Shown one piece after another: positions 6,648 to 39,439 of a stretch of DNA of 44,212 nucleotides. Origin of the DNA: Hyphomicrobiales bacterium (GTDB taxonomy: Bacteria; Pseudomonadota; Alphaproteobacteria; Rhizobiales; HXMU1428-3). Made by a program: the position numbers and the translations under genes. Each line of letters starts with the position of its first letter. The first letter of the stretch is position 1. The notes beneath the pieces are model-generated. The model did no database searches. It worked only from the letters and a program-made list of their open reading frames with translations, and had not been told where the DNA came from. The stretch is from positions 5,160 to 49,371 of the forward strand of contig JAEPQF010000006.1 of assembly GCA_017640685.1 (NCBI GenBank), in the 5' to 3' direction.

Positions 6648-6749
6648 AATCAGATACCTGCAAATAAATACGCCCCCCCTCATCAGACACATACCAAGAA
6701 CATAATCTTTCCATATGAAGAAGAGTAGTGCTTTTTTGCACCTGGACAT

Positions 6750-6846
6750 CGGCGGTACATAGTGCGGTACATGGCGCGACTAGCGTCCAGTACCTAGGCA
6801 CGGCGCCGTTGCAAGCCTGCCGCGATAGCGGCAGATTAGCCGTGAA
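6750..6846 (+). repeat. Degenerate type II multi-hairpin repeat
   Basis: Lies in the 358-base gap between ahcY and divL. It keeps the ACATGGCG...TAGCG block (about 6769-6786) and a perfect hairpin CTGCCGC/GCGGCAG (6817-6823 and 6828-6834, GATA loop) followed by ATTAGCCGTGA, matching hairpin C of the type II copies near 30 and 39 kb. The middle part has diverged. Confidence 0.55.
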
Positions 6847-30077: not shown

Positions 30078-30266
30078 AAAGAAGGAGCTCAGCCCTTTCT
30101 TGTCCTCCAGTTGCCCACTTCGGGCAATGGGATGTGGCGAAGCGTCAGCGTAGCCCGATGCACAAGATCAGCCCGAACGGAGTGGAGCGAGTACGGGATA
30201 AGCTGATCGCAAAAAAACATCGCACCTCGTAGGCCCATGAGCCTTAGCTCATGGAATAGCCGTGAA
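30078..30266 (+). repeat. Type II multi-hairpin repeat carrying a type III insert
   Basis: Framework blocks seen: GAAGGAG (30080), GATGTGGCGAAGCG (30131-30144), GCGTAGCCCG (30148-30157), GCACCTCGTAGGC (30222-30234) and AATAGCCGTGAAAGA (30255-30269). Hairpin A is TTGCCC/GGGCAA (30111-30126), hairpin C is CCATGAGC/GCTCATGG (30235-30254). Hairpin B (GATG...CATC) is interrupted by the type III element at 30160-30217. The gap to the right holds type I copies. Confidence 0.8.
30160..30217 (+). repeat. Type III hairpin element inside a type II repeat
   Basis: A 58-base unit with stem GATCAGC/GCTGATC, inner stem CCG/CGG, loop AACGGAGTGGAGCGAGTA and a terminal GCAAAAAAA. A second copy at 38363-38419 differs at paired positions that keep both stems intact. 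Confidence 0.75.
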
Positions 30267-30285
30267 AGATTAATACGTCTGCCAT

Positions 30286-30380
30286 ACCGGTTGCATCGTA
30301 AGAGGTCTGAAGGCGCATTACGCGCGGGTTACAAGTGGGCAACCTGAAGGTGCATAAAAAAAGAGCATCTGAAGCATAAA
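30286..30380 (+). repeat. Nested or degenerate type I repeats
   Basis: A left arm GGTTGC lies at 30289-30294, a fuller copy at 30322-30356 (GGGTTACAAGTGGGCAACC, then TGAAGGTGCA), and a right arm GAGCATCTGAAGCA at 30364-30377. The order left arm, full copy, right arm again suggests insertion of one copy into another. Confidence 0.65.
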
Positions 30381-30476
30381 AATGCTTTGTGATAATTCAC
30401 ACATTTATTCTTTTCGCAATCTCCTATTGTCAAATCATCAACAGCGCGGGGCAATAAAGCGAAGCGCAACTAAACA

Positions 30477-30520
30477 GCGCGGTTGCAAGTGGGCAACCTA
30501 AAGCGCCATTAAGAGAGAGA
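30477..30520 (+). repeat. Type I hairpin repeat abutting a gene start
   Basis: GCGC plus GGTTGC, AAGTG loop, GGCAACC, TAAA linker, GCGC (30477-30504): both the inner and the four-base outer stems pair. The tail CATTAAGAGAGAGATAGAG reaches to eight bases before the ATG at 30528, so the repeat tail may supply its ribosome-binding site. Confidence 0.8.
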
Positions 30521-30884: not shown

Positions 30885-31034
30885 ACGAAGAAGGCGTACC
30901 CCCCAATTAGTTGAGAGCGAAAAACGTAGGCCTCTGCGCGTTTGTTGATGGGCAACCTGAAGTGCAAATTATAGAGGCCGTCAGCGCTTAGCGCTGCACC
31001 TCGTAGGGCGGCAGCTTCGCTGCCTTTGCCCGTG
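30885..31034 (+). repeat. Type II multi-hairpin repeat interrupted by a type I repeat
   Basis: Begins GACGAAGAAGGCGTA. Hairpin GGCCTCT/AGAGGCC (30929-30935 and 30973-30979) has a type I copy in its loop. Then follow hairpin B CAGCGC/GCGCTG (30982-30996), the block GCACCTCGTAGG, hairpin C GGCAGC/GCTGCC (31010-31024) and the end block GCCCGTGAGAGAA. The element ends about 15 bases from the dnaJ stop. Confidence 0.75.
30936..30965 (+). repeat. Type I repeat inside a type II hairpin
   Basis: GCGCGTTTG, loop TTGATG, GGCAACCTGAAGTGC. The left arm has one change that weakens the stem. It sits in the loop of the type II stem GGCCTCT/AGAGGCC. Confidence 0.65.
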
Positions 31035-31049
31035 AGAGAAAACAAACTT

Positions 31050-32207: not shown

Positions 32208-32324
32208 TTAGCTTTGCCTCTACTAAATTCTTTGATCTATCCATCTCAGGTTTTATCAATATTCTATAACGTATCGATCAAAAGTATAGAACCCGGTTTA
32301 GGGATATGTGCAAATACTTTTCTA

Positions 32325-32352
32325 TGCGGATGCTCTGTGGGCATCTGAAGCA
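32325..32352 (+). repeat. Type I hairpin repeat between dnaK and dnaJ
   Basis: TGC, GGATGC, loop TCTGTG, GGCATCT, GAA, GCA: both inner and outer stems pair, and the flanks extend the outer stem to TATGC/GCATA. A degenerate right arm CATCTAGAGCA follows at 32362-32372. Confidence 0.85.
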
Positions 32353-32383
32353 TAAAAAAGTCATCTAGAGCACAATTAACAAG

Positions 32384-32445
32384 TGCGGATGCTTTTTTTG
32401 CGGATGCTTTGTGGGCATCTGAAGCATAAAAAAGGCATCTGAAGC
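32384..32445 (+). repeat. Type I repeat nested in a type I repeat
   Basis: Outer left arm TGCGGATGC (32384-32392), a full inner copy at 32399-32426 with stem GGATGC/GGCATCT, an A-run, then the outer right arm GGCATCTGAAGCA (32433-32445) with the tail CAACTAAAAAAG. The inner copy therefore occupies the apical loop of the outer one. Confidence 0.85.
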
Positions 32446-32449
32446 ACAA

Positions 32450-32482
32450 CTAAAAAAGAATCCCGCCGGAAAATTCCGGCGG
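32450..32482 (-). terminator. Intrinsic terminator after dnaK
   Basis: On the minus strand CCGCCGGAA and TTCCGGCGG (32474-32482 and 32463-32471) form a GC-rich hairpin, followed by GATTC and a T-run at 32456-32450. It lies 23 bases after the dnaK stop, so dnaJ expression needs read-through or its own promoter. Confidence 0.85.
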
Positions 32483-36581: not shown

Positions 36582-36860
36582 ATTTGAAGTTATGAGTTTA
36601 TGGAATTGAGTCGCTTGATTTTTTTAAATATAAACGGTTGAGTAAAAATAAATTTGCTCAATAAACAAAAGCCCTCAGGTGTAAAGCGACCTCCCCGTTG
36701 AATGATTTAAGTCATAGAGCTGTTATCCAAAATCATGTTTTTGTCACATGAATGTCAATTTAAATCAGTAAAAACGTCTAATTCCGATGAAAGGTGCCAT
36801 TGTTTTTTATTATGGCTCCCCATATGTATTTAGTGGGTATCTGAAGCATAGAAAAAAGTA

Positions 36861-36952
36861 CGGATGCTTGCGGCGGTTGCTTTTGCGGATGCTACGACGG
36901 TTGCTGGTAGGCAACTGAAGGAGCACTAAAAGAGTGGGCATCTGAAGCACAA
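36861..36952 (+). repeat. Deeply nested type I repeat array
   Basis: Four left arms occur in succession: GGATGC (36862), GGTTGC (36875), GGATGC (36888) and GGTTGC (36899). The last closes as a complete hairpin (GGTTGCTGGTAGGCAACT, tail GGAGCACTAAAAGAG), followed by the right arm GGGCATCTGAAGCAC (36937-36951). This looks like repeated insertion of copies into earlier copies with loss of some right arms. A related right arm, GGGTATCTGAAGCA, stands alone at 36836-36849. Confidence 0.75.
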
Positions 36953-37033
36953 AAAAGTTTAGCGTGATTCTAAAAGGTAAAACTGTCTTGAGATTTATTC
37001 AATAAAGACATTTAGCAATAAGGGCGATCACCG

Positions 37034-38124: not shown

Positions 38125-38214
38125 GGTTGCTTGCGGCGGTTTTTGGTGGGAAACCTAAAGCCGTCTCAAAAAATGTGCAACCGAAGGCACCAAAAGAGAG
38201 AGCATCTGAAGTGC
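38125..38214 (+). repeat. Nested type I repeats including a GTTTT/AAAAC-type stem
   Basis: Outer left arm GGTTGC (38125-38130), inner copy from about 38134 with stem GGTTT/GAAACC and outer closure CGGC/GCCG, then the outer right arm GCAACCGAAGGCACC (38177-38191) with the tail AAAAGAGAG, and another right arm GAGCATCTGAAGTGC (38200-38214). Confidence 0.75.
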
Positions 38215-38218
38215 GATA

Positions 38219-38256
38219 GCGCGGTTGCTTGTGGGCAACCTGAAACGCCACTAAAA
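38219..38256 (+). repeat. Type I hairpin repeat
   Basis: GCGC, GGTTGC, TTGTG, GGCAACC, TGAAACGCC, with the tail ACTAAAAAAG. It is followed at 38260-38280 by TTAGCCCGTGAGAGATAA, the isolated end block of a type II repeat. Confidence 0.8.
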
Positions 38257-38362
38257 AAGCATTAGCCCGTGAGAGATAACAAGCAGTATTATTTATATAC
38301 GAAGGAGGAGTGACGTCTCTTCGGCGTCAGGACATGGCGAAGCGATAGTGTAGCCCGGCGGC

Positions 38363-38419
38363 GCACAAGATCAGTCTGAACGGAGCGCAGCGAGTACAGA
38401 TAAACTGATCGCAAAAAAA
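38363..38419 (+). repeat. Type III hairpin element inside a type II repeat
   Basis: A 57-base unit with stems GATCAGT/ACTGATC and CTG/CAG, loop AACGGAGCGCAGCGAGTA and end GCAAAAAAA. The paired positions that differ from the copy at 30160 change together. Confidence 0.75.
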
Positions 38420-38442
38420 GCCCCGCCCTTCGTAGGTAATAG

Positions 38443-38470
38443 TGCGGATGCTTTGTGGGCATCTGAAGCA
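38443..38470 (+). repeat. Type I hairpin repeat inside a type II element
   Basis: A perfect copy: TGC, GGATGC, TTTGTG, GGCATCT, GAA, GCA; flanks extend the outer stem to GTGC/GCAC. It occupies the position of hairpin C in the surrounding type II repeat. Confidence 0.85.
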
Positions 38471-38494
38471 CAAAAAAATCTCCGTGAGAGAAAA

Positions 38495-38716: not shown

Positions 38717-38915
38717 ACTCTATTCCTCTTCTGTCAGCTTATCGTTCGTTAGAGTCTCGGCTCTAAATATGGTTAAAAAGTGCGCTTCAAAAAACTTATC
38801 CACAGACAGTTGCCGGACTTGAATTGACAGAAATTTCCAAATTAACTCAAAACTTTAAAAGCACAAATGCTCATAGAGTTGAAAAGAAATACAACAATCA
38901 AACCAGCATTACGAA
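38717..38915. other. Upstream region of the 73-residue gene
   Basis: About 200 bases, A+T-rich, with no repeat copy. A single perfect DnaA-box sequence (TTATCCACA) lies at 38796-38804 with no second box near it. I see no gene. Confidence 0.4.
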
Positions 38916-39030
38916 GAAGGAGTGACGCATTTTCGGCGTCAGGACATGGCGGAGCGGGAGCGTAGCCCGGCGCCTAGCGCCGCACCTCGTAGGCCTGTCG
39001 CTTCAGCGACAGAATAGCCTGTGAGAGATA
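38916..39030 (+). repeat. Type II multi-hairpin repeat, most complete copy
   Basis: An uninterrupted copy of about 115 bases. Hairpin A is TGACGC/GCGTCA (38923-38928, 38936-38941); then GGACATGGCGGAGCG; hairpin B is GGCGC/GCGCC (38969-38973, 38977-38981); then GCACCTCGTAGGC; hairpin C is CTGTCGC/GCGACAG (38995-39001, 39006-39012) closed further by GGC/GCC; the end is TAGCCTGTGAGAGATAA. This copy can serve as the reference for the family. Confidence 0.85.
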
Positions 39031-39072
39031 AAGCGAAAGTTGCGAGTGGCCAATCACAAAATACTCAATCTA

Positions 39073-39200
39073 AAACTACGAAGAAGGAGCACCACTTTTC
39101 TTAAGCAGTGTGACATGGCGAAGCGCTAGCGCAGCCCGGGGCAAGCCCCGCCCCTCGGAGAAGCCCGCTGCTTTGCAGCGGAGTAGCTCGTGAGAGAAAA
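39073..39200 (+). repeat. Type II multi-hairpin repeat
   Basis: Starts TACGAAGAAGGAG. GACATGGCGAAGCGCTAGCG is conserved; hairpin B is GGGGC/GCCCC (39138-39149); the block CCTCGGAGAAGC replaces CCTCGTAGGC; hairpin C is CCGCTGC/GCAGCGG (39165-39171, 39175-39181); the end block is TAGCTCGTGAGAGAAAA. It follows the previous copy by only about 43 bases in the same orientation. Confidence 0.85.
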
Positions 39201-39335: not shown

Positions 39336-39404
39336 AGGCCGGTCGCTTGTGGGCAACCTGAAGGCCCAATTAAAAAGCCGGTTGCTTGTGGGCAACCTAA
39401 AGGC
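39336..39404 (+). repeat. Two tandem type I hairpin repeats
   Basis: Copy one (39336-39366) has outer stem GGCC/GGCC and arms GGTCGC/GCAACC with one C-A mismatch. Copy two (39377-39404) is perfect, with outer stem GCC/GGC. The tails are CAATTAAAAAG and CAGTTAATGAG. Confidence 0.85.
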
Positions 39405-39439
39405 CAGTTAATGAGTCCATCCCGAATTCTTCAGGCAAT

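Follow-up and report, generated by a model that had tools for sequence, protein, structure and literature searches.

Type II repeats in the analysed window

The window, that is the whole stretch of 44,212 nt that was analysed (contig C197:5160-49371), belongs to a draft genome of 3.5 Mb in 230 contigs (G000). Using a covariance model built from 30 type II copies (R1) we found in the window six type II repeats, each of them on the + strand. The core of the finding is a complete copy without insertion at 38913..39027 (115.3 bits, E 1.4e-31). It opens with a conserved unpaired 5' motif, GAAGAAGGAG (38913..38922), which is evident from the sequence and the alignment of copies, and continues with hairpin A (38923..38941; helix 1), a TGACGCA/GGCGTCA stem with one mismatch in the sequence. 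Hairpin M (38948..38967; helices 2 and 3) lies within the framework ACATGGCGnAGCGnnAGYGYAGCCCG, and M types that are perfect palindromes occur in other copies. Hairpin B (38969..38981; helix 4) reads GGCGC-cta-GCGCC and is followed by the linker GCACCTCGTAGG (38982..38993; helices 5 and 6), the 5' side of an outer stem. Hairpin C (38995..39012; helix 7), CTGTCGC-ttca-GCGACAG, was assigned by stem match, and the 3' end AATAGCCTGTGAGAG (39013..39027), the 3' side of the outer stem, from the sequence and the 30-copy structure.

A second copy at 39080..39196 (96.4 bits) has CCGCTGC/GCAGCGG as hairpin C and an imperfect hairpin A; these last two copies of the window make up the region described in an earlier sequence-only reading. 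The copy at 38301..38490 (62.8 bits) holds a type III element within hairpin B, and its C region contains a type I element (families D3 and D17); the copy at 30078..30268 (80.1 bits) carries a type III element in B and has CCATGAGC/GCTCATGG as C. A diverged copy with a type I element is located at 30887..31038 (39.0 bits; C is GGCAGC/GCTGCC) and a degenerate one at 6717..6846 (20.3 bits, E 1.4e-4; C is CTGCCGC/GCGGCAG). The conserved framework blocks and all five C stems quoted in the sequence-only reading were recovered in + strand copies detected with the model, with arms starting at 38995/39006 (CTGTCGC/GCGACAG), 39165/39175 (CCGCTGC/GCAGCGG), 31010/31019 (GGCAGC/GCTGCC), 30235/30247 (CCATGAGC/GCTCATGG) and 6817/6828 (CTGCCGC/GCGGCAG).

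Type I palindromes are present in the window at 30327-30519, 32319-32456, 36830-36956, 38138-38261, 38437-38477 and 39341-39418. They take the forms GGTTGC-tngtgg-GCAACC-TGAAG and GGATGC-tttgtgg-GCATC-TGAAG, in many copies whose own outer stems vary. The type III element ACAAGATCAG...CTGATCGCAAAAAA lies within the hairpin B loop of type II copies, in the window at 30160-30220 and 38363-38410.

Anatomy, fold and stem variation

In the type II unit of about 115 nt an outer stem surrounds the last of four hairpins (A, M, B and C). From 5' to 3' the unit runs from GAAGAAGGAG through hairpin A, GG, ACAT and hairpin M to hairpin B, GC[C/A]CCTCG[G/T]AGG, hairpin C, AATAGCC and GTGAGAG. Hairpin M has the form GGC-gaa-GC-gnna-GC-gna-GCC or is a plain palindrome, for example GGCAGC-atc-GCTGCC, and in the outer stem CTC..GGC is paired with GCC..GAG, so that hairpin C is enclosed. 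The repeat is non-coding, without a reading frame, and is dispersed in the manner of REPs and MITEs.

In the alignment of 30 copies, 97.7% of the 870 pair cells were standard pairs, compared to 79.8% when the letters of the 3' side were shuffled and 29-48% when the partners were slid. The covariation score was 0.460; shuffling gave 0.139 and sliding no more than 0.076. Both-sided changes were found at 21 of the 30 pairs. The structure itself comes from copies of this kind, which makes the slid control favourable by construction; the weight therefore rests on the shuffles and on the number of both-sided changes. Folding of single copies was not decisive (z about -2 to -0.7). What is conserved in the type II units is the fold, not the stem sequence. 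The pattern noted by the sequence-only reading is thus real, with pairing far beyond chance, but it had been over-read, since each stem was described there as perfect, unrelated to the others and without intermediates.

Among the parsed copies genome-wide the stems were perfect in 91/149 cases for A, 104/149 for B and 93/132 for C, and hairpin A is imperfect already in the window (TGACGCA/GGCGTCA; CACCACT/AGCAGTG). Imperfect stems thus make up about 30-39% of A, B and C stems, and many of them lie one step from a perfect stem. G.T pairs outnumbered A.C pairs on the element strand (110 vs 56, and 79 vs 39 when M was left out because its search pattern favoured G.T); the p values, 3e-5 and 3e-4, are optimistic because the copies are partly related by descent. 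To judge from this excess, the element strand is the one on which the fold is maintained, either as RNA or as single-stranded DNA. The stems form a few families that are connected through single-pair steps. Those of hairpin C compose networks such as CCAAGCGC-TCAAGCGC-TCAAACGC, CCATGAGC-CTATGAGC and CCGCTGC-CTGCTGC-CTGCCGC-CTGTCGC-CTGTCAC, and the five quoted C stems had seemed unrelated because one or two had been drawn from each family.

Distribution of the repeat family

With the exact framework motif, allowing at most three mismatches, we counted 71 copies in G000, about 50 in G002, 54 in G004 and 33 in G003. Among the remaining four members of the genus the motif was rare or missing. When the motif was read backwards there were no copies in G000, compared to the 71 forward. 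The R1 model, with no more than 150 candidates scored per genome, gave at least 135 copies in G000, at least 150 each in G002 and G004, and at least 148 in G003, as well as at least 137 in G001, 43 in G005, 17 in G006 and 28 in G007. The metagenome-assembled genomes (MAGs) of this genus are labelled Methyloligella sp., Rhodomicrobium sp. and Hyphomicrobiales bacterium.

Across genome contigs the exact pattern was found only in three named MAGs, all of the order Hyphomicrobiales, and the same scan gave no viral match. The confinement to one genus that the exact pattern had suggested turned out to be wrong, as the structure model found members beyond it: 22 of 150 Hyphomicrobiales genomes had R1 matches, and some of these genomes belong to different families within the order (G032, 26 copies; G018, 30; G033, 9; G126, 8), with much lower scores. 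These copies retain B, GGAGGC, C and AATAGCCGtGAG, and their stems differ. BLAST against plasmids and phages returned no match to the type II repeat. The sequence-only reading had also considered that the family might match a known structured RNA; no Rfam family was matched at the gathering score, where the sole hits were to the neighbouring tmRNA, and nothing meaningful appeared at E up to 5. The type II repeat is a real structured repeat family that is undescribed.

Orientation and gene context

The most surprising feature, which was absent from the sequence-only reading, is a strand lock. Of the motif-defined copies 182/183 lie on the A-rich strand (A > T over the surrounding 20 kb), and the model-found copies lie on this strand in 236/247 cases (G002 123/130; G004 113/117). 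Several of the 11 exceptions in the model set are inverted beside another copy or near GAATTC-centred palindromes. The sole motif-defined exception, G000:C151:5794, is near the start of its contig and is possibly a local inversion or an assembly join. The type I element GTGGGCATCTGAAG (GCATC form, 118 vs 1) and type III (32 vs 0) are likewise strand-locked. On G002 contig C1 and G004 contig C18 the minus strand carries the 16S rRNA gene and the plus strand all motif-defined copies; as the copies run opposite to 16S rRNA, the element strand has lagging-strand sense. In a second family, genome G032, the lock is again near-absolute per contig, with the copies sharing one orientation on every multi-copy contig, and G018 has inverted doublets.

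The genes flanking the copies were arranged ++ in 44, -- in 46, convergently in 62 and divergently in 9 cases, compared to background gap counts of 284, 292, 154 and 247, respectively. Divergent gaps, which hold promoters, are avoided, and two copies lie within ORFs. The strand lock is independent of the direction of the flanking genes.

A functional structured RNA, for instance a 3' UTR element or a small RNA with a selected fold that has spread by duplication, would agree with the strong covariation, the G.T excess on the element strand and the enrichment downstream of genes and in convergent gaps. We nevertheless regard this explanation as unlikely, because the orientation tracks replication and not transcription (++ 44 vs -- 46), the more than 100 copies per genome are polymorphic with loops that carry other inserted elements, and an Rfam family is lacking.

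Somewhat harder to sustain, and in our judgement rather improbable, is that the repeats are REPs moved by an IS200/IS605-like or RAYT Y1 transposase, as folded single-stranded DNA entering the lagging-strand template. Such elements are oriented by replication (PMC5371812), the type II repeats are intergenic palindromes, and one type I insertion showed no visible target duplication. However, the Y1 transposase domain PF01797 was found in neither G000 nor G002 (G004 gave two hits), inspection of the type II framework by eye revealed no GTAG/GGAG at a hairpin foot, and E. coli REPs occupy both strands (PMC12306157). Moreover, the exposed lagging-strand template is the other strand from the one with the G.T excess, so that the G.T polarity agrees poorly with a plain IS200-like model; an RNA would agree better, as would a strand that anneals into the nascent lagging strand. 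A retroelement of the group II intron or retron type was rejected, as the reverse transcriptase domain PF00078 was missing from G002 and G004 (one was present in G000). Neither a Y1 transposase nor a reverse transcriptase was found in G002, a genome with at least 150 copies.

Changes between orthologous copies

The genomes G002 and G004 have about 94% flank identity and share 17 loci at which both immediate flanks are conserved. In the 13 alignable orthologue pairs, a set in which the identity filter favours gradual cases, 647 stem pairs were unchanged, 46 were changed on one side and three on both sides. Of the one-sided changes, 18/46 were between a Watson-Crick and a G.T pair. All three both-sided changes were in one element (L101:8482/L126:10113) and were non-adjacent; runs of double changes did not occur among these pairs. 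Gradual compensation, which the sequence-only reading had set against the rewriting of whole arms, was observed in hairpins B and C of this element: B changed from GGCGC/GCGCC to GGCAC/GTGCC, and C from CCAAGCGC/GCGCTTGG to TCAAGCAC/GTGCTTGA at two separate pairs, stepwise. Its hairpin M had changed type.

At about four of the 17 loci a block had been replaced, namely the linker and C (L097:14923/L116:9933), M, linker and C (L103:9981/L124:12216), A and M (L099:8894/L127:3391), and a complex change in an array (L090/L142). With lower certainty, hairpin A changed from CTCAGCCC to TACTGCCC between G000 L195 and G004 L114 while M, B and C were nearly identical, and L194/L128 showed a block change in C. 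In the replaced blocks both arms and usually the loop were altered, and the new A arms are present in other copies. The comparison of sister orthologues that had been proposed revealed mostly single one-sided steps and a minority of whole-hairpin replacements.

These data bear on the proposal that one arm is copied onto the other by template switching in a single step, by which the stems would stay perfect and jump in sequence. Published work documents the process in RNA stems (PMC8794818), the hairpins here are short and tight, and in G003 L202/G002 L087 two C changes were confined to one arm. Nevertheless we hold it to be improbable, as one-sided changes dominate (46 vs 3, with none in runs), imperfect intermediates are common, and the swapped hairpins differ in both arms and the loop, so that neither arm was the template. 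The block replacements support exchange between copies, which predicts them, and not copying of arm onto arm. The swapping of cassettes, also raised in the sequence-only reading, has therefore stood up better, with types reassorted among copies in addition to the replaced blocks.

Reassortment, nesting and presence or absence

Hairpin types were unlinked across up to 89 copies (A-C, p 0.24; A-B, p 0.96; M-C, p 0.37). Only the adjacent linker and C were linked, as the pairing of the two requires, and M-B was weakly positive within G000 (p 0.008). Discrete types that are long-lived and show no linkage point to exchange between copies; the same outcome is expected from recurrent mutation towards a few stable stems.

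The presence of type I (GGTTGC-tagtgg-GCAACC-TGAA) and type III (AAGATCAG...CTGATCGCAAAAAA) elements in the A, B and C loops varies between G002 and G004, and one 34-nt type I insertion had clean junctions and no visible target duplication. Whole type II units are also polymorphic between the sisters, mostly as extra units 3' of an existing GTGAGAGAAAA end, and for these arrays deletion between repeats is an equal explanation. The ends of type II insertions relative to empty sites are mostly ambiguous because the neighbours are other repeats. Few clean single-copy type II insertions are proven, as many of the differences fall within arrays, where deletion between repeats may account for them. 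Near-identical tandem type II units at L104 7961-8469 in G002 are missing at the same place in G004, which suggests a recent expansion or loss of the array. The presence of another element, AGCGTTCCGCCCAAAAGTGGATACCGGTTTTGGG...GGAACGCTAAAAC..., differs between the sisters as well (L101, L108, L105/L129, L074/L138). This element presumably resembles intergenic elements of other Rhizobiales, and palindromes related to it can hold a type II copy inside.

Proposed explanation and relation to known systems

Taken together, the hairpin puzzle is mostly ordinary compensatory drift plus module swapping. Type II repeats are probably structure-defined repeats of the alphaproteobacterial order Hyphomicrobiales that diversify by drift and by exchange of modules and are strand-locked through a folded single strand. 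One source of hairpin diversity is compensatory drift at fixed positions, passing through G.T intermediates, as observed directly in the copies; a second is the exchange of whole hairpin modules between copies, seen as block replacements and free reassortment, and the route of this exchange may be recombination within and between intergenic arrays. The strand lock would most likely arise at the replication fork, with a folded single strand as the form in which new copies enter or survive. More tentatively, and with considerable doubt, we propose that these are order-wide repeats propagated at the fork as a folded strand without a known transposase, strand-locked, with a shared stem repertoire from which loci swap stems.

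A polar segregation signal of the KOPS or SRS type, in which GAAGAAGG would guide FtsK, is very improbable despite the strict polarity along contigs and GAAGAAG being a reported KOPS motif of Lactococcus, because outside the elements GAAGAAGG shows no clear strand skew (109 vs 91), GGGNAGGG favours the opposite strand (42 vs 71) and the polarity is opposite to the KOPS expectation.

The structure-defined, strand-locked repeats proposed here resemble REPs and REPINs in being short intergenic palindromes of high copy number that occur in arrays and doublets and are enriched in convergent gaps, and in REPINs the hairpin spacers likewise show compensatory changes (PMC3116915; PMC3733652). In contrast to these, the type II unit is about 115 nt long, has four hairpins and a conserved framework and is locked to a replication strand, and the RAYT hallmarks, a Y1 transposase (in G000 or G002) and the GTAG/GGAG foot, were not seen. 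With MITEs, RIME and ABC elements they share the character of non-coding mosaics of small nested palindromes and the inverted doublets of G018, but terminal inverted repeats were not seen in the home genus and the orientation with respect to replication is near-uniform there; RIME was compared by description. The folded single-strand ends, the lack of a visible target duplication and an orientation that recapitulates replication (PMC5371812) are reminiscent of IS200/IS605 elements, whereas TnpA was not found in G000 or G002, the body has multiple hairpins and the strand of G.T excess has lagging-strand sense. Integron attC sites fold on one strand, with varying stems, a conserved structure and an orientation biased by replication (PMC5371416), as do the type II repeats. 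Unlike attC sites, the type II repeats are dispersed and not in one array, they have no cassette genes, and R'/R'' boxes were not recognised.

With more than 100 natural replicates of four hairpins per genome, and sisters that are about 94% identical, stem change becomes directly measurable as a single step, a double step or a whole-module swap. A strand lock that is independent of transcription would identify the strand and the molecule by which such palindromic repeats without a transposase spread or act.

Two further arrangements were observed in other families of the order. In G018 (L222, L225, L229) the copies form head-to-head inverted doublets, 16-22 nt apart and REPIN-like, with TCTCACGG...CCGTGAGA as outer ends. 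At L226 (G126:C12:47309-47826) five diverged units lie in tandem with a spacing of about 103 nt.
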